Shown here in pieces: positions 32,865-46,063 of a DNA stretch of 64,000 bases (its first letter is position 1; every line of letters starts with the position of its first letter). The DNA is from Acinetobacter sp. ANC 3781 (lineage in GTDB: Bacteria > Pseudomonadota > Gammaproteobacteria > Pseudomonadales > Moraxellaceae), in the NCBI RefSeq assembly GCF_004331285.1, contig NZ_SJOH01000006.1:62001-126000 (forward strand), in the 5' to 3' direction. Below the pieces are notes generated by a model. That model did not search any database. It was given only the letters and a program-made list of their open reading frames with translations, and was not told the DNA's origin. The position numbers and the translations under genes are program-made.

Positions 32865-34484
32865 TTAAACAAACTGCAAGAATAACCAGAACAGACCACC
32901 TGATAAACAAATGGTAGCAGGTAGCGTGAAAATCCATGCTGAAAGAATGGTTCGTACCATCTGGAAGTTTAAGCCGGATTTGTTGGCCACCATGGTACCT
33001 GCAACCGCACTGTTTAATACATGTGTTGTCGATACTGGCATACCAAAGCCATCTGCTGCTGCAATAGTAGTCATAGCAACCAGTTCAGCTGACATGCCTT
33101 GGCCATAAGTCATATGGTCTTTACCAATACGTTCACCCACAGTCACTACAATACGTTTCCAGCCCACCATGGTTCCCAGACCAAGCGCAAGCGCTACTGC
33201 AACTTTTACCCAAGTCGGAATATATTGCAAGAATGAATCGAGGTTTTTACGGTATTCCTTGACTGTCTTGGCTTGACTTTCTGACATTGCAGGAAGCTGC
33301 TTAGTTTTATCTAAACGCTTGAAGGCAGTCGTGCTTAAGTACATATCGTTACGGATAGTCGAAACTTGTTTTTCTGGAATATCTTTTAAATCACCATATT
33401 TGGCAACGTGATTACCCAAGTGATCGGTCAAACTTGCCAAAGCAGGCACCACTTCAGGTGACATTTCTTTAGTTTGAATATACTTGGTCAACACTTCACG
33501 CGCTTGTGTATCCGGAATATCTTGATGATTTGGATAAATAACTGCCGCAGTTTGCACAGATAACTGTTCAAATGATTGGAGATGCTGGGTGTCCAGGTTT
33601 TTATTCAATGAGTACGCCAAAGGTACACAACCGATCAAGATCAGCATGATTAAACCCATGCCTTTTTGACCATCGTTTGATCCATGCGCAAAACTTACCC
33701 CAGTACAGGTAAAAATCAAAATGGCACGAATTAAAGGCGGTGGTGGTTTGTTGCCTTCAGGGGGTTTAAAAAGTTCAACTTGCTTTTTAAAGATTTTTTT
33801 TACCAATAAGAATACTATTGCAGCAAAAGCAAAACCAATTAAAGGCGAAAACAACAAGGCTTTACCGACTTTAATCACTTGGTCCATATCTACGCCACTG
33901 GCACCATTACCCATGTGCAGGAGGTAATTCATAATGCCCACCCCTAAAATCGAACCGATTAAAGTATGTGAACTAGACGCAGGAATACCCAAGAACCAGG
34001 TACCCAAATTCCACAGAATCGCCGCAATCAGCATGGCAAAAACCATGGCAAAACCAGCACCAGAACCGACATTCATAATCAGTTCGACAGGCAATAAAGC
34101 AATGATGCCGTAGGCTACTGCTCCACTTGCCACCATCACTCCAAGGAAATTACAAAAGCCTGCCCACATCACAGCAACAGGGGCAGATAAAGCATTGGTA
34201 TAGATGACTGTCGCTACCGCATTGGCAGTGTCATGAAAACCATTAACAAATTCAAAGCCTAAAGCAATTAACAACGCAGTCGCTAAAAGAATAACGGAAT
34301 ATAAACTTAATGTCGGGACATGTGACAAATCAGCTGAAAGTTGAAAGCCGATGTACACCAAAGTAGAAATAATAACCGTGAGAAACACCGGCATAAAAAA
34401 TTTCGGCGTAGCAACATGCACATTCGTCGATCTTGCTGGTGCTGATGGCACCTGGTCTTGGACGGGAGGAATATTAGAATTCAT
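32865..34484 (-). CDS. Low-affinity inorganic phosphate transporter, PiT family
   Basis: A 539-residue inner-membrane metal-phosphate/H+ symporter. Both PiT repeats are visible: GFEFVNGFHDTANAVATVIY near residue 78 and FAHGSNDGQKGMGLIMLIL near residue 268. About eleven membrane segments surround a hydrophilic central loop (about residues 300-430), as in E. coli PitA. The N-terminus has an extra soluble stretch (MNSNIPPVQDQVPSAPARS). It is not next to a phoU-like gene, so the constitutive Pit role is likely. Confidence 0.93.
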   Translation of the reverse strand: MNSNIPPVQDQVPSAPARSTNVHVATPKFFMPVFLTVIISTLVYIGFQLSADLSHVPTLSLYSVILLATALLIALGFEFVNGFHDTANAVATVIYTNALSAPVAVMWAGFCNFLGVMVASGAVAYGIIALLPVELIMNVGSGAGFAMVFAMLIAAILWNLGTWFLGIPASSSHTLIGSILGVGIMNYLLHMGNGASGVDMDQVIKVGKALLFSPLIGFAFAAIVFLLVKKIFKKQVELFKPPEGNKPPPPLIRAILIFTCTGVSFAHGSNDGQKGMGLIMLILIGCVPLAYSLNKNLDTQHLQSFEQLSVQTAAVIYPNHQDIPDTQAREVLTKYIQTKEMSPEVVPALASLTDHLGNHVAKYGDLKDIPEKQVSTIRNDMYLSTTAFKRLDKTKQLPAMSESQAKTVKEYRKNLDSFLQYIPTWVKVAVALALGLGTMVGWKRIVVTVGERIGKDHMTYGQGMSAELVAMTTIAAADGFGMPVSTTHVLNSAVAGTMVANKSGLNFQMVRTILSAWIFTLPATICLSGGLFWLFLQFV

Positions 34485-34914
34485 GCAGACGGTTCAAGAG
34501 GATAATAAAATCCCCTTATTGTTCAATTTAATTGTGACAATTATATGACAAAAGGATGCCATATAAAGCCAAATTTCAATAATTGGCTTAATTTAACTCA
34601 TTCAACTTTATCTTGATGAGCCGAACTGTTTTAAATCCATCAATTTGCATTATTTAAAGCTAAAAATAGTTTGTGCCTCAATATTTCAAAATGCATGAAT
34701 ACCTTTAGACAAGATATTTCTAATAATCAAATTACCCAGCTTGTCGTTATCTGTAGCCGATCATAGCCTGCTGATATTTCAATTCGATGAAAAATTCGGC
34801 ACTAATGGGCTTATTTTAAGCTGTGTCTCACGATGTCGGCTGAATATTCCTCAAAGGCAGTGTAATTCTGCTAAAATGATGCCCATTTTGTATTCCATCG
34901 GATTGGGGTTATTT
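34485..34914. other. Non-coding spacer between divergent phosphate transporter and metH
   Basis: About 430 bases. A frame open to 34741 joins metH but its content is not protein-like before the metH start. I saw no conserved cobalamin or SAM riboswitch core. Both genes' promoters must lie here. Confidence 0.5.
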
Positions 34915-37900
34915 ATGTCCACGCTTGCCACCCTGAAAGAGCTTCTCGCCAAACGCATCCTGATTATTGACGGCGCTATGGGTACCATGATTCAACGCCA
35001 TAAACTAGAAGAAGCGGATTATCGGGGTGAGCGTTTTGCTGACTGGGCATCTGACCTCAAAGGTAACAATGACCTTTTAGTCCTGACTCAACCCCAGATT
35101 ATTCAAGGCATTCATGAAGCCTACCTAGATGCCGGTGCAGACATCATTGAAACCAACAGCTTTAACGGCACACGTGTTTCTATGTCTGACTATCACATGG
35201 AAGATTTGGTGCATGAAATTAACTTTGAAGCAGCGCGTGTTGCCAAAGCAGCTTGTGAAAAATATTCAACGCCAGACAAACCCCGTTTTGTAGCCGGTGT
35301 ACTTGGTCCTACATCTCGTACCTGTTCGATCTCACCGAATGTAAATGACCCGGCATTTCGTAACATTACATTTGATGAACTCAAAGAAAACTATATTGAA
35401 GCAGCTCACGCCCTGATTGAAGGCGGTGCGGATATTCTGTTGATTGAAACAGTGTTTGATACACTAAACTGTAAAGCAGCAATTTTTGCAGTGAAAGAAG
35501 TATTCAATCAGTTGGGTTATGAATTGCCGTTGATGATTTCGGGCACCATCACCGATGCTTCAGGCCGTACTTTAACCGGTCAAACTGCAGAAGCATTCTG
35601 GAACTCGGTTCGTCATGGCGACTTGTTATCAATCGGCTTTAACTGTGCCTTGGGTGCAGATGCCATGCGTCCGCACGTCAAAACCGTATCTGACATTGCC
35701 AACACTTTTGTTTCAGCCCATCCCAATGCAGGCTTGCCGAATGCTTTCGGTGGTTATGATGAGACCCCTGAAGAAACTGCAGCGTTCCTGAAAGAATTTG
35801 CAGAAAGTGGCTTAATCAATATTACCGGTGGTTGCTGTGGTACAACTCCCGATCATATCCGTGCCATCTACAATGCTGTAAAAGACATTGCGCCGCGTCA
35901 GATTCCTGAGATTAAACCAGCCTGTCGTTTAAGTGGTTTAGAGCCATTTAACATTGATGAAAATTCTTTGTTCGTCAACGTGGGTGAACGTACCAACGTG
36001 ACCGGTTCAAAAAAATTCGCGCGTTTGATTCGTGAAGAAAACTATACCGAAGCTTTGGAAGTTGCCTTGGATCAAGTACAAGGCGGTGCGCAGATTGTCG
36101 ACATCAACATGGATGAAGGCATGCTGGATTCACAGGGAGCGATGGTTAAATTCCTGAATCTGATTGCCTCTGAACCGGATATTTCCCGTGTGCCGCTGAT
36201 GATTGACTCATCGAAATGGGAAATTATTGAAGCCGGCTTGAAATGCGTACAAGGTAAAGCAGTAGTGAACTCCATTTCCCTAAAAGAAGGTTATGAGGAG
36301 TTCGTACATAAAGCACGCCTGTGCCGTCAGTATGGTGCAGCAGTTATTGTCATGGCATTTGATGAAGATGGTCAGGCTGACACGGCTGCGCGTAAACGTG
36401 AAATCTGTAAACGTTCTTATGATGTGTTGGTAAATGATGTCGGCTTCCCTGCTGAGGACATTATTTTTGACCCGAACGTATTTGCGATTGCAACAGGTAT
36501 TGAAGAACACAACAACTACGCGGTCGATTTCATTGAAGCAACCGGCTGGATTAAGCAAAATCTTCCACATGCCATGATTTCTGGTGGCGTATCTAACGTA
36601 TCGTTCTCTTTCCGGGGGAATGAACCGGTTCGTGAGGCCATTCATGCCGTGTTCCTTTATCATGCCATTCAACAAGGCATGACCATGGGGATCGTGAATG
36701 CGGGTCAGCTGGCGATTTATGATGACATTCCTGCTGAATTAAAAGCTGCGGTTGAAAATGTGGTACTGAACCAAAACCAAGGCGAAAGCGGTCAGGATGC
36801 TACTGAGAAATTACTTGAAATCGCGGAACAATATCGTGGTAAAGGCGGTGCGCAACGCGAAGCTGAAAACCTGGAATGGCGTGAACAGTCTGTTGAAAAG
36901 CGTCTTGAATATGCTTTGGTTAAAGGTATTACCGCTTATATTGATATCGACACTGAAGAAGCGCGCTTAAAAGCTGCTCGTCCTTTAGATGTAATTGAAG
37001 GTCCGTTGATGTCGGGCATGAACGTTGTGGGTGACTTGTTTGGTGCAGGTAAAATGTTCCTGCCACAAGTGGTGAAATCTGCACGTGTAATGAAACAAGC
37101 CGTGGCCTGGTTGAATCCGTACATTGAAGCGGAAAAAACTGAAGGTCAGGCCAAAGGGAAAATCCTGATGGCGACCGTTAAAGGCGACGTGCACGATATT
37201 GGTAAAAATATTGTCGGCGTGGTACTGGGCTGTAACGGTTACGACATTGTTGACCTTGGCGTGATGGTGTCTGCGGAAAAAATCCTGCAAACCGCGATTG
37301 ATGAAAAAGTCGATATTATTGGTTTATCTGGTTTGATTACACCTTCACTGGATGAAATGGTATTTGTCGCCAAAGAAATGCAGCGTAAAGGTTTCCACGT
37401 TCCGTTAATGATTGGTGGTGCGACGACGTCTAAAGCACATACAGCAGTGAAGATTGACCCGCAATATTCAAATGATGCAGTGATTTATGTAGCAGATGCT
37501 TCACGTGCAGTCGGAGTTGCAACTTCCCTGCTTTCACCTGAAATGAAACCTGAGTTTATTAAAGGTTATCATGAAGAATATGCCAAGGTACGTGAGCGTA
37601 TTGCCAACAAGCAACCAAAAGCAGCAAAACTGACTTATGCCGCTTCAATTGCCAATGGCGTGAAAATTGACTGGACGAACTATGTGCCGCCTAAGCCAAA
37701 TGTTCTTGGTCAGCAAGTTCTAAAAAATTATCCGCTTGAAACTCTAGTGCCATATTTTGACTGGACACCCTTCTTTATCTCTTGGAGTTTGGCAGGCAAG
37801 TTCCCTGCAATTTTGACAGATGAAGTGGTGGGTGAAGCGGCAACAGATTTGTATGAACAAGCGCAAATCATGTTGAAAGATATTGTAGAGAACAAGCGTT

Positions 37901-38607
37901 TTGATGCACGTGCGGTGTTTAGTCTTGCTCCTGCAAAACGTACCGGTGCAGATACCGTTTCGATTTATGATGAAAATCAAACTGCAACGCATAAGTTTGA
38001 GCATACCCGTCAGCAGTCAGACAAAGTTTCAGGTAAACCGAACTTCTCATTAGCAGATTTCATTGCCCCTGAAGATACCAAGCTAGAAGACTACTTGGGT
38101 GGTTTCACGGTATCAATTTTTGGTGCGGAAGAATTGGCACATGAATATAAAGCCAAAGGGGATGATTATTCTGCAATTTTGGCACAGTCTTTAGGTGACC
38201 GTTTTGCAGAAGCGTTTGCCGAGCATTTGCATGAGCGTATTCGTAAAGAGTTCTGGGGTTATCAAGCGTCTGAACAGTTGTCGAATGATGAGCTGATTAA
38301 AGAGAAGTATGTCGGGATTCGTCCTGCACCGGGTTACCCTGCCTGCCCAGAACATTCTGAAAAAGCGACCTTGTTTAGCTGGTTAGATTCAACCAATGCA
38401 ATTGGTACCGAATTGACATCAAGCTTTGCAATGTGGCCACCTTCAAGTGTCAGCGGTTTCTATTACAGCAATCCACAATCTGAATACTTTAATGTTGGTA
38501 AGATTGCACAGGATCAGTTGGATAGTTATGCAGAGCGTAAAGGCTGGTCAATGGATGAAGCGAAGCGTTGGTTAATGCCAAACCTAGATGATTCGATTGA
38601 GATTTAA
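34915..38607 (+). CDS. metH: Cobalamin-dependent methionine synthase
   Basis: A 1230-residue enzyme that methylates homocysteine from methyl-tetrahydrofolate through B12. Modules in order: homocysteine domain (residues 1-325, ending with the zinc Cys pair [10 protein letters not shown]), pterin-binding domain ([14 protein letters not shown]), cobalamin domain with DVHDIGKN supplying the lower-axial His, and the SAM reactivation domain ([15 protein letters not shown] near residue 1133). Length matches E. coli MetH (1227). The start at 34915 is used: GGGGTT lies upstream and the 58 preceding in-frame codons are not conserved-looking. Confidence 0.97.
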
Positions 38608-38621
38608 GATTTTTAAGATGT

Positions 38622-38656
38622 AAAAAAATCCCCTCTAAGTGAGGGGATTTTTTTTA
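38622..38656. terminator. Bidirectional terminator between metH and the SIR2 gene
   Basis: AAATCCCCTC-TAAGT-GAGGGGATTT with long A and T tracts. It overlaps the stop codon of the convergent SIR2-domain gene. Confidence 0.92.
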
Positions 38657-40168
38657 TTTATATTTTTTTTGGTCATATAGACATAATAGCTTTTTAAAAT
38701 TTAATTCACGGTTTGAATTGAAAGATTGTAAATAGTGCTCTAAATCATCAAGTGTAATTTTATCGTTATATATTAAGCAAAAAATACATTCAATCTTATA
38801 GCTTTCAGCCACGATGTCTGTCTTTAAAACATCTTCTATCGTTGCAAAACCTAGAGTTAAATATTTCGTACAGTTAATTGATCTGAGCAGCTCTTCAATT
38901 TTTCTATCTTGTTGCTGTTGTAATACAGTCAATTTCGATAAACCATTATAAATCGATGAAAATCCATATATTGGAAACCAATGCGATTTAGAGATTTTCA
39001 TATCATCAATTAACTTAATTAATGATTCATCTTTCTTATGTAATATATCAAAATAGTCTTCAATTAATTGTGAAGGCTCCTTGTAGGTATATTCAATTTT
39101 AGTCTTTGTAACTGGCGAAATAGCTAATATTTTCTCTGAATTTTTGAGATCATCAATGTCTTCAGCGATACTTACTTTAATTGAGCCACCTGATGTGATC
39201 TCTTTCACAGTATCTAGCACTCTCTTTACTTGATATGCTGTCACTGGTAGGCTCAGACCTTCGATAGCCTTATATATATCTATGTAATTATCAGTTTTAA
39301 TTTTATTGATTCTTATTGTATTACCATCTACATCAATATCATGATCAAGTACATCTAAAGAGTCTGATCCTTCGGTATATTCAACCAGCAAAAAATTATT
39401 TCTAATTCGATCTGCTTCTCGTGAATTAAGCTGCACATATTTATAAATAGTACTCAAAATTTTCTTAATATTAATATCATTCACACTATAACCAATAAAA
39501 ATTATAGGGTTATGTACAAATATTGAGATTAACTGTGCGCGTATTAAATCATAACGATCATCAAAGTCATCATAATCTTCTGTTGTAAAAACTAATCCTT
39601 CGGGTTCTTCAATAGATCCATGAATTTTATAAACAGAACCATAAGGATTACTTAATAGAATATTATTTCCAACTAATGCATCAAACTGCGTAATATGTTC
39701 GATTAACTGATCATAGTTAGTTGTAATAATTGAAGAAATATTTTTAGACAATTGTTTTATAATCTCAATCTCTTCTTCCTTAGCTTCTTTAAGTTTTAAG
39801 TCTTTTAAAAGGTAAGAAATATATATCTTAAACTTATCTGATGATATTCCTTCATCTGCCTTTTTGTAGTATTCATCATTAATGTCTTTAAATTTACCAT
39901 TTCGATTTTCAGTAGTAGATGCTACTTTGTTGAACTCTTTTTGAAGAAGGCTGGCTAACTTCATAAAGTCATATTTATCAGTTTTCCTGTCGTAAACTTG
40001 ACCTTTTAGATCATGAAAATATTCATTATCACCTTTAATTTCGAAAGCAATGGCTTTTAATAAATTTTCCCAAGAATAGGAATTCTTCAAATAGCGCAAA
40101 CTAAAGCCAGTACCAAGGAAAAGTACTGGATGATTTTCATATTTATTAATAAAATCAAAAATGTCCAT
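38654..40168 (-). CDS. Stand-alone SIR2-domain protein, probable anti-phage NADase
   Basis: A 504-residue cytoplasmic protein. Its N-terminal half is a SIR2-like domain: NAD-loop VLFLGTGFSLRYL (15-27), SSIITTNYDQLIEH (145-158) with Asn151, YKIHGSI (180-186) with His183, and FIGYSVND (224-231). Asn and His in these contexts are the catalytic pair of defence sirtuins such as ThsA and DSR2, which destroy NAD+ in infected cells. The C-terminal half (about 300-504) is helical and unrecognised; it may sense infection or oligomerise. The gene is visibly more AT-rich than its neighbours, stands alone, has no good ribosome site and abuts the metH terminator, all consistent with horizontal gain. Function is inferred. 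Confidence 0.8.
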   Translation of the reverse strand: MDIFDFINKYENHPVLFLGTGFSLRYLKNSYSWENLLKAIAFEIKGDNEYFHDLKGQVYDRKTDKYDFMKLASLLQKEFNKVASTTENRNGKFKDINDEYYKKADEGISSDKFKIYISYLLKDLKLKEAKEEEIEIIKQLSKNISSIITTNYDQLIEHITQFDALVGNNILLSNPYGSVYKIHGSIEEPEGLVFTTEDYDDFDDRYDLIRAQLISIFVHNPIIFIGYSVNDINIKKILSTIYKYVQLNSREADRIRNNFLLVEYTEGSDSLDVLDHDIDVDGNTIRINKIKTDNYIDIYKAIEGLSLPVTAYQVKRVLDTVKEITSGGSIKVSIAEDIDDLKNSEKILAISPVTKTKIEYTYKEPSQLIEDYFDILHKKDESLIKLIDDMKISKSHWFPIYGFSSIYNGLSKLTVLQQQQDRKIEELLRSINCTKYLTLGFATIEDVLKTDIVAESYKIECIFCLIYNDKITLDDLEHYLQSFNSNRELNFKKLLCLYDQKKYK

Positions 40169-40437
40169 AGTTTTTTACATTAATCAATTCTAAAGTATTT
40201 CTGTTTTATACCACTAAAAAAATATAACTACCATAATTTAGTAGCTTCCTATTGATTACCTTTATCGCTCTAAATCGGCTCTTTTCCAATCCCCCTTCCC
40301 CAAACCCTCCATTTTTTTACATTTTAACTCTGCAATCTCAGGCACTTTCAATAATAATAGGGCAATAAATTTATCTCCTAAATTCATAACTATTGGTGTT
40401 TAAACATACTAAAACAACTATTTCAAATCAATAGAAA

Positions 40438-41655
40438 TCAATAGATAGATAAAGGCGTATTACTCACTAACTCTAGGTAATTTCTCACCTGATTTCTGCC
40501 CTGCCGTTTAGCCAAATATAAGGCCCGATCGGCCAAACGAATGGTCTGTTCTTTATTTAAATGGCTTTGAGAGAGTGCTACACCAAAACTTGCACTTATT
40601 TTTAAAATCTCTTCTGTTTCTAGCTGAATTTCTTCCTGTTCAATTATTTTACGACAACGTTCTGCAATCTCTATGGCTTGCTGTAAATTTTGCTCTTTTA
40701 AAATCAAAATAAATTCTTCACCACCAAAACGCCCCACGATATCCTGCTCCCGTGTAGTAGCACATAAAATTGCAGCAACGCGTTGCAAAACCATATCTCC
40801 AACTTCATGGCCATATTGGTCATTAATTTTTTTAAAATGATCCAAATCCAGTAAAATTACCGCATACGCTGTTTTTTTCTTACGTTCTAAAGCGGTGAGC
40901 TGTTCACCAACATGACGACGATTAAATACATTGGTCAAGACATCGGTCTGGCTCATTCTTTTAATATTTCTTTCACGTCGACGCCATTGCGAAAGCAAAA
41001 TTTCAAAAAACAAAATCGAAACCAGCAAGATCGGCAGATAGACTTCCGCCATACTTCCGATCCAGAATTCATTATGATAGAACTCCCCATGAGTAAGTGC
41101 ATCACTAAACACAGGCGCGTAACGAATCATCCCATTAAAAGTTAAATAACAAACAATAATGGTAAATATAAGAGCAGGAATCGCAATACTATAAATGATG
41201 AGTCGTGAATAAAAGACCAAGCCAATCAGAACGATATTAACAAATCCGGCAATGGTAGCAGGGCTGTAAATACCCACGGTATAGCCTGCATAAATCATAG
41301 TGCCACCAAAAAATATCGGTGAAAAATGAGAAATAAATTTACGGAATCTTTTATTCCGCTTATATCTGAAACTCAGTACTACCAACAACATGAAAAACAA
41401 TAAAGTAATAAACACGGTAAGCATACGGATGAAAAAAAAGTCCGTATTAATCCAGACAGCATTTTCTGCTGAGAAATAGCTCACCAGATACCATTTAATT
41501 GCACTGACTTGGCAAAATGCACCGAAAACCAGAAGCAATACTCCTTTATCAAAATCAGGCCAGTTAATAATTAAATTATCTGATTCGAGTAGGTGAAATC
41601 TAAATCTGCCCCAATAATGAAAAATCAATGTATATATTTTTCTAAACAAGTTCAT
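40438..41655 (-). CDS. Membrane diguanylate cyclase (GGDEF) with I-site
   Basis: A 405-residue inner-membrane protein. Residues 35-225 contain about six membrane segments with short loops, a MASE-like sensor of unknown input. The C-terminal GGDEF domain (about 235-395) has the active site GGEEF at 311-315 and an RxxD inhibitory site (REQD, 302-305) exactly five residues before it, so it should make c-di-GMP and be limited by product. It is probably monocistronic. Confidence 0.93.
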   Translation of the reverse strand: MNLFRKIYTLIFHYWGRFRFHLLESDNLIINWPDFDKGVLLLVFGAFCQVSAIKWYLVSYFSAENAVWINTDFFFIRMLTVFITLLFFMLLVVLSFRYKRNKRFRKFISHFSPIFFGGTMIYAGYTVGIYSPATIAGFVNIVLIGLVFYSRLIIYSIAIPALIFTIIVCYLTFNGMIRYAPVFSDALTHGEFYHNEFWIGSMAEVYLPILLVSILFFEILLSQWRRRERNIKRMSQTDVLTNVFNRRHVGEQLTALERKKKTAYAVILLDLDHFKKINDQYGHEVGDMVLQRVAAILCATTREQDIVGRFGGEEFILILKEQNLQQAIEIAERCRKIIEQEEIQLETEEILKISASFGVALSQSHLNKEQTIRLADRALYLAKRQGRNQVRNYLELVSNTPLSIY

Positions 41656-41732
41656 ATACTTAATTACTATATTTATAATTTATAAATTTTTATTACTTTA
41701 TCTTTATAGCACAAAAATTAAACAATGAAGAA

Positions 41733-42212
41733 TTATATCCGCTGAGTAAACAACACCCCATCTAAATGATCCACTTCATGCTGCACAATTCTTGCAGGGA
41801 AACCGGTATAGATCATTTCTATTTTTTGACCTTGCAATGTTAGATAACGCACTTTAATCGTTTCTGCTCGTGCCACTTGCCCACGCTCATCTGGAACACT
41901 TAAACAGCCCTCTTCACCTAGAACCAGTAACTCAGATTTTTCTAAAATTTCAGGGTTTACCATCACCACCGCATCCATTTCAGGCGCATCGGGATAACGT
42001 AGGTTAGAGCGTGAAGCGACAATAATCACCCGTTTCGAGACATAAACTTGAGGGGCTGCAATACCCACACCATTGCGCTGCATCATGGTGGTATGCATGG
42101 CTTCAGCAAGTTGATTTAACCAGTCACTATTCAGCTCCGACTTTGCAACTGTAGCCGCTGTTAAGGTCAAAATGATTTCACCACGCTGTGCAACAGGTAA
42201 AATGGTGCTCAT
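41733..42212 (-). CDS. def: Peptide deformylase
   Basis: Removes the N-formyl group from new proteins. The 159-residue enzyme has the three PDF motifs: GVGIAAPQ (48-55), EGCLS (101-105) with the metal-binding Cys, and HEVDH (145-149) with two metal His and the catalytic Glu. The gene is not next to fmt, so this is likely an additional copy and not the fmt-linked one (inference). It ends shortly after motif III, without the longer C-terminal helix of E. coli Def. Confidence 0.93.
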   Translation of the reverse strand: MSTILPVAQRGEIILTLTAATVAKSELNSDWLNQLAEAMHTTMMQRNGVGIAAPQVYVSKRVIIVASRSNLRYPDAPEMDAVVMVNPEILEKSELLVLGEEGCLSVPDERGQVARAETIKVRYLTLQGQKIEMIYTGFPARIVQHEVDHLDGVLFTQRI

Positions 42213-42435
42213 AAATTTAATCCTGACTTTGCTATAAAGCTCAACTCTATATTATTTTAAACCACAAATTTTGTATAAATCTTAGCGTCAAAAAGCAGAC
42301 TTTCATATTCTGTTTTTGGATACTTTTATTTCACCTTTTCTGCAAACCAGGGCGAGCTGTATATAAGCAAAAAATTAAGCCCATTTTAATTTTAGCTGGT
42401 TATAATCAGGCTAAATCTTTTATAAATATAAAATA

Positions 42436-42639
42436 ATGACCACAACCCAACTTCTTCTCGGCGTCCTGTTTAGTTCTATTGGCTTAGGCTATTTTCTGTA
42501 TGGAAAAAAGCAAAAAGTCACTGTGCCCTTGGTATGTGGCTTAGTCCTGATGATCTTCCCTTATTTTGTGGAAAATACTACGATGCTCACCCTGATCGGC
42601 ATCATCCTCTCAATTTTGCCTTACTTCGTAAAACTATAA
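42436..42639 (+). CDS. Small conserved two- or three-TM membrane protein
   Basis: A 67-residue, almost wholly hydrophobic protein: TTQLLLGVLFSSIGLGYFLYGKKQK, then two further hydrophobic stretches each ending in PYFV. Close relatives with the same GKKQK turn occur in many gammaproteobacteria and are sometimes labelled amino acid transport protein without evidence. It is monocistronic or precedes the transporter at 42762. Confidence 0.75.
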   Translation: MTTTQLLLGVLFSSIGLGYFLYGKKQKVTVPLVCGLVLMIFPYFVENTTMLTLIGIILSILPYFVKL

Positions 42640-42761
42640 TATCTAGACAGATCATGAAGGACTATTCATAAATTTAAGTTGTCATACCTAAAAGAAAGAT
42701 TGATTTTTTATATCAATAGCAATTGATTAAAATCAAAACTTTATCATCATTTGTAGCGCCA

Positions 42762-44102
42762 ATGACCCATATAACCAGCACGGAAGCAGCTGCACGTCTA
42801 AGCAGTGAAGATAAACGCACCCTTGGACTTTCCTCACTCGGTGGCGCACTTGAATTCTACGACTTCGTCATTTATGTCTTTTACGCCAAAATTATCTCAG
42901 AGCTGTTTTTCCCGAGTGGCTTAAGTCCTTTTTGGGCTATGCTGAATACTTACGGTATTTTTGCCGCAGGTTACTTCTTCCGCCCTCTTGGTGGCGTCGT
43001 CATGGCTCATTTTGGTGATTTGATTGGACGTAAACGCTTATTCAGCCTGTCCATTTTACTGATGGCACTCCCGACCTTAATGATTGGTGTAATGCCGACC
43101 TTTGAAAGTATCGGATATGCCGCGCCCTTATTATTATTGCTGATGCGCGTAGTACAAGGCATTGCCATTGGTGGAGAAATTCCTGCGGCCTGGACTTTCG
43201 TATCCGAGCATGTCCCCGCAAGAAAAATTGGTTTTGCTAACGGCCTACTCACCGCAGGCTTATCTTTAGGGATTTTACTCGGCGCCTTGATGTCCTTGTT
43301 TATTTCTATCAAGTTTTCAGAAACACAAATTCATGACTGGGCATGGCGTGTTCCCTTTATTGCAGGTGGTATTTTTGGTTTAGTCGCACTTTATTTGCGT
43401 AGCTATTTAAAAGAAACGCCCGTATTTAAAGCCATGCAGGCGCGTAAAGAACTTTCCAAAGAAATGCCGGTAAAACAGGTTTTAGCAGAACATAAAACCG
43501 CGGTGGTGATTGGAATGTTGTTTACCTGGTTCCTAACTGCTTGCGTAGTGGTACTGATTTTAGCCATGCATAACTTATTGGTCGGTGCTTTTGGTTTTGA
43601 ACGCGCCGATGCCTTTAAAATGCAAAGTGCCGCAATTGTCATGCAAATGTTGGGTTGTATTCTGGCAGGACTTTTAGCTGACCGTTTTGGCGCAGGCAAA
43701 GTGATTTTATTCGGCTCACTTGCTGTCGCGATCATTGCGGGTGTTTTCTATAACAGCCTCGGACATGTCGCTCCATCCACCGTGTTTATGCTTTACATGT
43801 TGCTTGGATTATTTTCAGGAACTGTGGGCATGGTGTCTTACAGTATGGTGAAAATGTTCCCGGCTCAAATCCGCTTCTCGGGTATTTCATTTTCCTATAA
43901 TGTGGCCTATGCCATAGCTGGCGGTATTACTTTGCCATTGGTGCAATGGTTAAGCCTGTATAGCAACATTGGCGCAATGTATTACATTTGGGTGGTATGT
44001 GTGGTCTCGTTCTTTACCGCGATGCTGTATAGAGCTAAATTTGAAAAAATGGACGTCGTAGCCTCTGCAGTTTCTACACCGCACAATCCAGTGCAAGATT
44101 AA
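42762..44102 (+). CDS. MFS transporter, metabolite:H+ symporter (MHS) family
   Basis: A 446-residue inner-membrane transporter with twelve hydrophobic segments. MHS features include GALEFYDFVIYVFYAKIISE in the first helix, DLIGRKRLF between helices 2 and 3, and RVVQGIAIGGEIPAAWTFV in helix 4. Relatives (ProP, ShiA, KgtP) import carboxylates, betaines or aromatic acids; the substrate here cannot be predicted. The ATG at 42762 is used because the in-frame TTG at 42723 adds residues unlike the family. Confidence 0.9.
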   Translation: MTHITSTEAAARLSSEDKRTLGLSSLGGALEFYDFVIYVFYAKIISELFFPSGLSPFWAMLNTYGIFAAGYFFRPLGGVVMAHFGDLIGRKRLFSLSILLMALPTLMIGVMPTFESIGYAAPLLLLLMRVVQGIAIGGEIPAAWTFVSEHVPARKIGFANGLLTAGLSLGILLGALMSLFISIKFSETQIHDWAWRVPFIAGGIFGLVALYLRSYLKETPVFKAMQARKELSKEMPVKQVLAEHKTAVVIGMLFTWFLTACVVVLILAMHNLLVGAFGFERADAFKMQSAAIVMQMLGCILAGLLADRFGAGKVILFGSLAVAIIAGVFYNSLGHVAPSTVFMLYMLLGLFSGTVGMVSYSMVKMFPAQIRFSGISFSYNVAYAIAGGITLPLVQWLSLYSNIGAMYYIWVVCVVSFFTAMLYRAKFEKMDVVASAVSTPHNPVQD

Positions 44103-44543
44103 TCATTAATAAAAGACCAATAAAAGAAAAGCCCTTGATTAAAATAGTGCTGATCAGTTAGGGAGTTTTTAAAATAAACTCCTTAACTTTTGGTTTATTC
44201 ACTGCAGATTATTATTTTAAGTCAAAAATTTGAAGTTTTTGCTTGTTTTGCGGAATAGTGTTTTTCCTTAACAATAATGATTAGCCCAAATATATATTTT
44301 GCGTGCGTAAGAATAGTATTTTTTCATCGCAAAACCCGTCTACTGCTTAAATTAAGAAAAATTGCAAAAACTGTATTTTTTAAATTTAGTTTTGCCTTGT
44401 ACTGTAAACAAAGCATGGCTTTGTTCTTGCTCAAGTTATGAATGACATTTTCATGTATCAAATAACATATTGAATTCAAAATAAAAAATGCCAGTCAATT
44501 TCTTAAAAAACTGGCATTAATTTATTAAAAAGCTTTTTTATCA
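44103..44543. other. Non-coding spacer between convergent genes
   Basis: About 440 AT-rich bases without a supported gene; the only structure seen is the terminator at 44482-44519. The length is unusual for a gap between convergent genes and may hide a lost gene or a small RNA, but nothing supports either. Confidence 0.45.
44482..44519 (-). terminator. Terminator after the DUF2505 gene
   Basis: AATGCCAGT and ACTGGCATT form a stem across a long AT-rich loop, with a T tract on the minus strand. Confidence 0.7.
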
Positions 44544-45041
44544 TTAAGCAGAGAGGTTTTTCTTTAATTCATCTTCAACAATCTGAATCTCCAAATCACT
44601 GAACTTACGAATTTCACCTTCCGCATGTTTTTCTAGCATACCGGCAATCAAAGGAACTTTGACTTTTACCTGCCAGTTTAATGTGAGGTGAATTTGCTGG
44701 TCGTCCCCAGTTACTGAACGTTCACAATTTGCTTCTAAAGGTAGATTTGCACCCAATTCTATGGTCGATGTTAAAGCTTCCAAATTAGTGATATCGGTAC
44801 GCTTCAAACGGAAAGCATCTTTGAGCAGTTTTTTTGCGATCTCCGGAATATTCACATCTAAATTATATGCACGGCGCAAAGTATAGGTACCGCCCTGAAT
44901 CCTAGATTCAATAATTTCTAATTTTTCACCTGGAATACGTCTGCACACGGCTTCGTGCAAAGCTGTATCTGCTGCAAGTCTTTTAAAGTCGTCAATTGAA
45001 ACGCCCTGAATTGTGGAGTTCACAGTAAAACGATGTGCCAT
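44544..45041 (-). CDS. DUF2505 domain protein
   Basis: A 165-residue protein opening with AHRFTVNSTIQGVSIDDFKRLAADTALHEAVCRRIPGE and alternating strands ending with a helix (FSDLEIQIVEDELKKNLSA). This matches the DUF2505 family, which has the Bet v1/SRPBCC-like lipid-binding shape and is found in Acinetobacter and actinobacteria. Function is unknown. It appears monocistronic. Confidence 0.85.
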   Translation of the reverse strand: MAHRFTVNSTIQGVSIDDFKRLAADTALHEAVCRRIPGEKLEIIESRIQGGTYTLRRAYNLDVNIPEIAKKLLKDAFRLKRTDITNLEALTSTIELGANLPLEANCERSVTGDDQQIHLTLNWQVKVKVPLIAGMLEKHAEGEIRKFSDLEIQIVEDELKKNLSA

Positions 45042-45175
45042 CTTTCTATCCTTATTTTTTATTGGTTATTTTGAATACTTATAAACCATTCAATCATCAC
45101 TAAGCTAGTGCCTTTGGTCGCTGTTTATTTAATTGAATTTTAGTGACACTGTCATTGACCGCCCATAACAAACTA

Positions 45176-45448
45176 TTAATCATATATGCCACAGCGTATT
45201 TCAATTTGCTCAGAACAGGAAATACTGAGGAAATGGTTTCTATATTCAATGATTGCATAGAATTGCTCGGCACCATCATCCAGGCCTGTAGCTGCCCAGG
45301 TGCTGCCTTTGGGAAAATGATTCAACCATTCAGCCTTATAAAAATCAGAGACTGAATCGAAGTTAATATAGTCAGCAGGCGCAGCTAGAATCCGAGATGC
45401 CATTTCATCAAATTGCGTCAATTGATGTTGCATAAAATCAATCAGCAT
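45176..45448 (-). CDS. Uncharacterised 90-residue protein
   Basis: A small soluble protein with clear coding character (SVSDFYKAEWLNHFPKG, QFYAIIEYRNHFLSISC). No family recognised. It lies 30 bases after pnuC on the same strand, so it is likely the second gene of that operon. The ATG at 45448 is used; a TTG three codons earlier (45457) is possible. Confidence 0.68.
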   Translation of the reverse strand: MLIDFMQHQLTQFDEMASRILAAPADYINFDSVSDFYKAEWLNHFPKGSTWAATGLDDGAEQFYAIIEYRNHFLSISCSEQIEIRCGIYD

Positions 45449-45478
45449 AGCTGTCAATCCAAGTGCGCCATAAAAGAT

Positions 45479-46063
45479 TTATACACCCTTAAAATGAGTG
45501 ATTGCCTGTTTCTTTTTCACTTGTTCCCACTGCCACCAGCCAAAAGCCGCCAAGCCGACAAAGGCGGCATATAATCCCGCGGTCAGGAATAAATCTTTAT
45601 AAATAAACATACCCACATAAATGATATCGACAAAAACCCACAAAACCCAAGTGGCAATATGTTTACGACTGGTCCAATAGGTGGCCAGTAAACTAAACGC
45701 TGCCAATTGTGAGTCTAGCATCGGTACAGCTGCGTCGGTAAAGTGTTTTAAAGTTAAACCAAAAATCAAGCCACCCAATGCTGCAAGTGACATTTGTAGA
45801 ATCACTATTCTACGCGCAATCGGTTCTATCCGAATTTCATGATCTTGCTGTTTGCCTTTCAACCAGTGATAAAAACCATAAAAGTTTACCACCATAAAAA
45901 AGAACTGCAGGATGGTTTCACCATACAGCTTAAATTCATAAAACAGGTAGGCATATAAAACAAAGGCTGCGAAGTTGAACCACCAACACCACATATTGCG
46001 TTTAATGGTTAATGTCACACCAATAAGACTAATAATGACAGCAACAATTTCTAAAGGTGACAT
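45479..46063 (-). CDS. pnuC: Nicotinamide riboside/mononucleotide transporter PnuC
   Basis: A 194-residue inner-membrane protein with about seven hydrophobic segments. WWFNFAAFVLYAYLFYEFKLYGE and FFFMVVNFYGFYHWLKG are the conserved PnuC helices that bind the nicotinamide ring. It imports nicotinamide riboside for NAD synthesis. No nadR-type kinase gene is adjacent. It heads a probable two-gene operon with the small gene at 45176. Confidence 0.92.
   Translation of the reverse strand: MSPLEIVAVIISLIGVTLTIKRNMWCWWFNFAAFVLYAYLFYEFKLYGETILQFFFMVVNFYGFYHWLKGKQQDHEIRIEPIARRIVILQMSLAALGGLIFGLTLKHFTDAAVPMLDSQLAAFSLLATYWTSRKHIATWVLWVFVDIIYVGMFIYKDLFLTAGLYAAFVGLAAFGWWQWEQVKKKQAITHFKGV

Follow-up and report, generated by a model that had tools for sequence, protein, structure and literature searches.

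We identified a stand-alone gene of the PDC-S25 family next to metH in Acinetobacter sp. ANC 3781. The gene probably encodes a horizontally transferred single-gene anti-phage effector that senses infection and responds by depleting NAD+. In the window, which is the whole stretch of 64,000 nucleotides analyzed here, it lies at 38654..40168 on the minus strand and forms an intact reading frame of 504 amino acids with an ATG start codon; the open reading frame together with Pfam, PADLOC and PHROG matches defines it as a SIR2_2-domain gene. We propose that the N-terminal SIR2_2 domain would be an NAD+ hydrolase that is off in healthy cells, and that a fast-diverging, helical C-terminal module would detect an infection cue, either directly or via assembly, and then switch the SIR2 enzyme on. 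The depletion of NAD+ would halt both the cell and the phage. The computations establish the fold, the unchanging catalytic residues, purifying selection, mobility, the absence of a recurring neighbor, accessory status and placement in variable loci; NADase activity, the trigger and protection against phage are inferred.

The SIR2 gene and metH form a convergent pair. A stem-loop terminator lies between them (38622..38654, plus strand), and its stem after metH reaches the stop codon of the SIR2 gene. The GC content of the gene is 28.3%, compared with 39.5% for the window. Upstream of the start codon, by 37 nt, is a putative extended -10-like element recognized by its match to the consensus, TGNTATAA (40206..40213, minus strand). 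All four metH-locus copies that were compared have this element, at a distance of 34-37 nt from the start, and it was not among the promoters reported by a standard promoter scan. Nine flanking genes (32868-46063) gave zero matches to PADLOC models at E<=0.001, and the lack of a known defense gene among them counts against the defense reading. The original prediction, which described the gene as AT-rich against its surroundings, adjoining the metH terminator and standing alone, agrees with these results and with the absence of a recurrent partner among the relatives.

The family is already catalogued. PDC-S25 is a phage-defense candidate in PADLOC-DB 2.0.0, and the window protein matches it over its full length (E=3.6e-142, 473 bits), residues 2-504 corresponding to model positions 13-515 of 517. 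A second full-length match is to PHROG 2695 (E=2.7e-114), and in Pfam SIR2_2 is the sole family above the cut-off (E=5.5e-19, residues 146-243). No Pfam or NCBIfam domain match was obtained for residues of about 300-504. The original prediction that the last 200 or so residues correspond to no known domain therefore stands for these two domain collections and fails for the full-length profiles, and its suggestion of a possible new subtype cannot stand in that form because PADLOC-DB already contains the family as PDC-S25. The name is a broad one, since the PDC-S25 models match all 83 aligned relatives, including 16 of only 23-31% identity, and two PADLOC ThsA models likewise pick up all 83 through the shared domain; this breadth is a further point against the defense reading. 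The window protein gave no match to the PD-named PADLOC models.

Among open-licence papers, we found no published experiment on any PDC-S25 member and no relevant paper on PDC-S25 or PHROG 2695. In passages of a 2026 archaeal survey, PDCs are traced to a 'guilt-by-embedding' approach, for which Payne et al. are cited, and most of them are described as unvalidated (PMC12988326). One Sir2 homologue is mentioned among the validated systems in passages of Vassallo et al. 2022 (PMC9519451). The terms SIR2 and PDC are absent from the main text of the DefensePredictor paper (PMC13092281), and S25 is absent from the genes shown in a paper on Streptococcus thermophilus defense with a PDC gene list (PMC11514479). 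The window protein is a PDC-S25 member that is ordinary in kind and well supported as a defense candidate, and its locus is interesting. The present analysis turns a catalogue name into a concrete protein, with defined residues, a known point at which the effector gives way to the putative sensor, and a relative in an E. coli P2 prophage.

The enzyme half is supported as well as sequence allows, and its NADase activity is predicted. In a structure model of the whole protein, which was built on 83 sequences and has a mean pLDDT of 89.2, residues 1-309 (39242..40168, minus strand) form the predicted SIR2 NADase domain. The best structural matches of this domain are DSR2 (Z 19.1, 3.5 A over 244 residues), KomC (Z 18.8, 3.1 A over 243 residues) and ThsA (Z 18.6, 3.8 A over 244 residues), whose scores amount to ties. 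Human FAM118B follows with Z 16.3. In passages of a paper on human FAM118, ThsA, DSR1 and DSR2 are placed together in the SIR2_2 subfamily, and antiphage sirtuins are described as NAD hydrolases that are often switched on by changed multimerization (PMC12700824). The codon of Asn151 is at 39716..39718 and that of His183 at 39620..39622 (both minus strand). Asn151 aligns with an alanine position of one solved ThsA and His183 with an alanine position of one solved DSR2, and the molecule names of the solved chains in the profile alignment include DSR2(H171A). Both residues are invariant in 83 of 83 rows, as are G19, G21, W33, D153, K181, D198 and D231. A SIR2-like fold with Asn151 and His183 at the positions used for NAD+ cleavage, as had been proposed at the outset, is consistent with all of this.

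The same domain bears on whether the protein is instead a housekeeping NAD-dependent deacylase or ADP-ribosyltransferase. The SIR2 fold itself is compatible with such a role, as is the presence of canonical sirtuins among the weaker hits of the structure comparison (Z 10-11). However, residues 1-309 contain zero cysteines and CxxC is absent from this region in all 83 rows, so the zinc-binding cysteines of the sirtuin module are missing; the best structural matches are defense NADases, and 167 of 175 congeners have no close member. We consider a housekeeping role extremely unlikely.

The C-terminal half is of a different character. Residues 310-360 (39089..39241, minus strand) are a helix followed by a low-confidence linker, with a mean pLDDT of 62 for residues 321-330 and 52-55 for residues 331-360. 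Residues 361-504 (38657..39088, minus strand) form an all-helical module, a putative sensor or assembly domain, with a mean pLDDT of 77-98 per ten residues and values above 90 in 11 of 15 such blocks. The module was also modeled alone, as residues 310-504. Searches of solved structures with it gave a best Foldseek E of 0.91 and a best Z of 3.0, both too weak to count as a match, a result that does not in itself demonstrate a new fold; a sequence search with the module gave no usable match, and a viral structure library gave no match at E<=0.001. Mean identity to the window protein is 50.2% in residues 1-309 and 28.8% in residues 361-504, and the latter segment is the less conserved in 82 of 82 comparisons with the window protein. 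This position and faster divergence beside a fixed enzyme suggest that residues 361-504 are the likely sensor.

Among named systems, PDC-S25 itself has the same full-length architecture as a stand-alone gene, and no difference from it was found in the features tested. DSR2 and DSR1 share the SIR2_2 effector, and the catalytic Asn and His are aligned with those of DSR2. In contrast, DSR2 has 1,005 residues, so the window protein with 504 is about half as long, and the structural alignments with DSR2 cover window residues 1-309 only. When the C-terminal model was searched alone, DSR2 was absent from the match lists, though the module may still have a DSR2-like fold. Those PADLOC Dsr1 and Dsr2 models that match the family take in 1-9 of its 83 members at E<=0.001, and the window protein matches none of the Dsr1 and Dsr2 models at E<=1. 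ThsA also shares the SIR2 domain, and the PADLOC ThsA models match best at window residues 120-252. However, ThsA has a C-terminal SLOG domain, whereas the window protein has no Pfam SLOG match at E<=1 and its C-terminal module gave no ThsA match. ThsB_TIR (PF08937) had 0 matches in the genome, while the same search was positive in one of 14 control genomes. SIR2-HerA and SPARSA have a HerA or Argonaute neighbor, unlike the window gene, whose nine flanking genes showed no PADLOC match. The original prediction had set the protein apart by its being shorter than DSR2, lacking a SLOG domain and having no HerA, TIR or Argonaute partner, and these distinctions were borne out within the scope of the searches just given.

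KomC and Avs5 share the SIR2 domain as well (Z 18.8 and 16.4). KomC works with a partner and Avs5 carries a STAND domain, and the PDB titles of these matches name KomBC and SIR2-STAND; neither such a partner nor a STAND domain was found in the window protein or the nine flanking genes. It is possible that assembly-driven activation is a mode shared with KomC and Avs5.

The neighbors of relatives give no sign of a multi-gene system. Among the loci of 59 relatives, 11 of 55 had a same-strand gene within 60 bp on the upstream side, and 4 of 55 had one on the downstream side. No family of nearest neighbors (immediate genes of at least 80 codons) was found in more than 4 of 59 loci, so none of them is a recurrent partner. 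Resolvases (4/110), phage integrases (3/110) and cytosine methylases (3/110) occur among the nearest neighbors, with no dominant defense context, which also counts against the defense reading.

SPARSA-type SIR2 effectors can act against plasmids and other incoming DNA, and the enzyme described here could have the same target instead of phages. SPARSA chains are among the structural matches, and some relatives are plasmid-borne or lie in what looks like an integrative element, as this explanation would predict. Nevertheless, the window gene has no Argonaute or PADLOC-known partner beside it, no neighbor recurs beyond the figure just given, and prophages and phages themselves carry the SIR2 gene. 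Action against plasmids is therefore unlikely, and defense against phages is the reading that we favor.

Two E. coli copies are informative about genomic context. DNA of 60-80% identity to a copy from a viral contig (L314) is present in 86 of 5,426 E. coli genomes, and 25 of these 86 matches cover at least 80% of the query. One E. coli copy, whose protein is 46% identical to that of the window, belongs to a P2-like prophage and is flanked there by the portal gene and the replication endonuclease; near-identical copies of this gene were found in five of the 5,426 genomes, itself counted. It occupies the gpA-gpQ locus, a hotspot that houses validated antiviral systems according to passages of Rousset et al. 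2022 (PMC9122126), and this placement speaks for the defense reading. SIR2 is explained in the legend of the cassette figure of that paper, and a test of a SIR2-only system is absent from its five main-text mentions of SIR2 and from section 10 (PMC9122126). The second E. coli copy is likewise 46% identical and has integrase-like genes on either side, downstream of ssrA.

The gene is accessory and not core, as the original prediction had expected. Close relatives (at least 46% identity) are present in 8 of 175 Acinetobacter genomes, and these eight copies include two fragments and one copy split across two contig ends. A conserved core gene is ruled out by this count, even with the fragments included. 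Any relative at E<=1e-5 is present in 22 of the 175 genomes; in the other 14 genomes the identity is 28-41%, and the broad model might class some of these relatives as PDC-S25 too. Beyond Acinetobacter, a collection of genome contigs yielded 77 loci. The plasmid collection has 42 records with a relative (12 covering at least 80% of the query), and 58 viral contigs carry one, of which 37 reach at least 41% identity and 21 fall within 24-32%. Phage records with a relative number only 7 of 50,697, all below 60% identity, and this scarcity is another point against the defense reading. Four of the seven are Lactococcus phage BK5-T, in which the relative (26.6% identical) sits between the lysin and the integrase. 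Phage P2 fun(Z), which we had presumed to be a possible relative, was rejected as such, as P2 is absent from the seven phage records matched.

By record title, the 58 labeled rows of a 59-row tree represent nine phyla. The window protein and two other Acinetobacter metH-locus copies form a separate long-stemmed clade; two other Moraxellaceae rows fall outside it, although one of them, A. towneri, sits on a long branch whose placement is unsure. Rows of the same phylum group together far more than in shuffles, which makes transfer between phyla likely but not rampant. The open-frame test was failed by 10 of 94 relatives (L240, L256, L267, L281, L290, L295, L296, L298, L300 and L311), which hints at frequent decay; two of these failures are copies in one symbiont genome (Fukatsuia). 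For the window copy, decay is ruled out by the open frame and by selection. The pair from genomes G093 and G125 shows strong purifying selection, with a dN/dS of 0.043 at a dS of 0.37, and the remaining pairs are saturated.

In Acinetobacter, metH is the immediate upstream locus for five of the eight close copies, namely those of the window, G062, G093 and G125 and, in G073, one piece of the split copy. The G167 copy is away from metH, and the G013 copy is at a contig end. The original prediction of an insertion at a conserved locus is supported by the four closest relatives of the window genome by metH, in which the SIR2 gene is absent. Similarity to those four breaks off 3-57 bp past the final sense codon of metH and picks up again 1,710-1,832 bp past that codon, and these breaks give the acquired cassette approximate limits of 38607..40313. 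The alignment with G062 is unbroken through metH (80.2%) and the SIR2 gene (70.4%), which fits long residence of the gene at the metH site. Between G093 and G125, the SIR2 genes are more alike (92.9% identity) than the metH genes (87.9%), which fits exchange. A further genome, G026 (locus L095), has a broken N-terminal SIR2 remnant with a stop 1395-1847 bp after metH, behind other cargo, a pattern that resembles the partial replacement of one cassette by another.

These copies also bear on whether the gene is a maintenance or lysogeny accessory of mobile elements, serving addiction or superinfection exclusion and giving no benefit to the host at the metH locus. Carriage by prophages and plasmids would be expected of such an accessory. 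The window cassette, however, consists of the SIR2 gene alone, with no integrase; intact metH-locus copies are found in several species, the measurable pair is under purifying selection, and no recurrent neighbor is available as a possible antidote. We regard this explanation as very unlikely, and an anti-phage effector is the reading we prefer.

In Acinetobacter, the stretch that follows metH serves as a hotspot for cargo genes. The comparison across the genus that the original prediction had proposed revealed a variable locus: among 121 delimited metH loci, 98 have cargo and 23 have none, and the cargo falls into 92 clusters including the SIR2 cluster. A usable metH end was available in 137 of 166 metH-positive genomes, and 132 gave ORFs of at least 90 codons; 11 metH loci without a recurrent gene were set aside, and the list of 'core' clusters was partly hand-picked. 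The mean GC content of cargo is 0.313 (155 ORFs), against 0.410 for the 911 other ORFs. Among the matches listed for 91 cargo representatives, some are to PD-Lambda-3, Old, AriA, PtuA and PDC-S31. In Pfam, some of the 91 match SduA and CAP12-TIR, and others are transposases (at most 5 of 91 per family) or metabolic genes. The PADLOC model families matched, which are counts of families and not of proteins, were 461 for 91 of the 92 cargo representatives (the SIR2 cluster being excluded) versus 62 for 91 of 176 core representatives, which include a reverse transcriptase with many defense-model matches. When ten common cargo clusters were scanned singly, one gave a good match to PDC-S33, one a weak match to PD-T7-4 and eight no PADLOC match; these eight and the transposases in the cargo count against the defense reading. 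Even so, with its 92 cargo clusters, the metH-downstream locus is a place to seek further small immune genes.

A two-palindrome element of about 100 bp accompanies much of this cargo, for example in L091, L092 and L095. It is present on both sides of the cargo in 37 of 98 loci, while 19 loci have it on a single side and 42 lack it altogether, and 35 of the 37 doubly bracketed loci have a plus copy on the left and a minus copy on the right. Of the left copies, 52 are plus and 2 are minus; of the right copies, 46 are minus and 8 are plus. Only one of the 23 cargo-free loci has the repeat within 600 bp of metH. The strict repeat pattern occurs 2.5 times per intergenic kb in cargo zones versus 0.08 elsewhere in the fetched loci, but the pattern and profile were made from cargo-side copies, which partly predetermines both this enrichment and the plus orientation on the left. 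The minus orientation of right copies (46/54) is not built into the pattern. The repeat is also dispersed: exact copies were located at 18 places in 7 of 11 genomes, and by their coordinates 13 of these places are away from metH. The element may serve cassette exchange, or it may be of a REP-like kind that accumulates at the metH loci. A profile scan of the window gave zero matches to the repeat, so the element is not part of the SIR2 cassette finding.

A bolder proposal is that PDC-S25 is a self-contained sensor-effector with a new helical fold that travels as an interchangeable metH-terminator cassette via the inverted two-palindrome repeats. We hold this only tentatively and regard it as doubtful; if true, the metH terminator would be a natural site at which cassettes of immune genes are exchanged. 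The loci contain one further recurrent feature, a short gene of about 120 codons (cluster 1; L091:9249-9635) that was present in 44 fetched metH loci, often directly after the cargo, and that we take to resemble a DUF559 endonuclease-fold gene.
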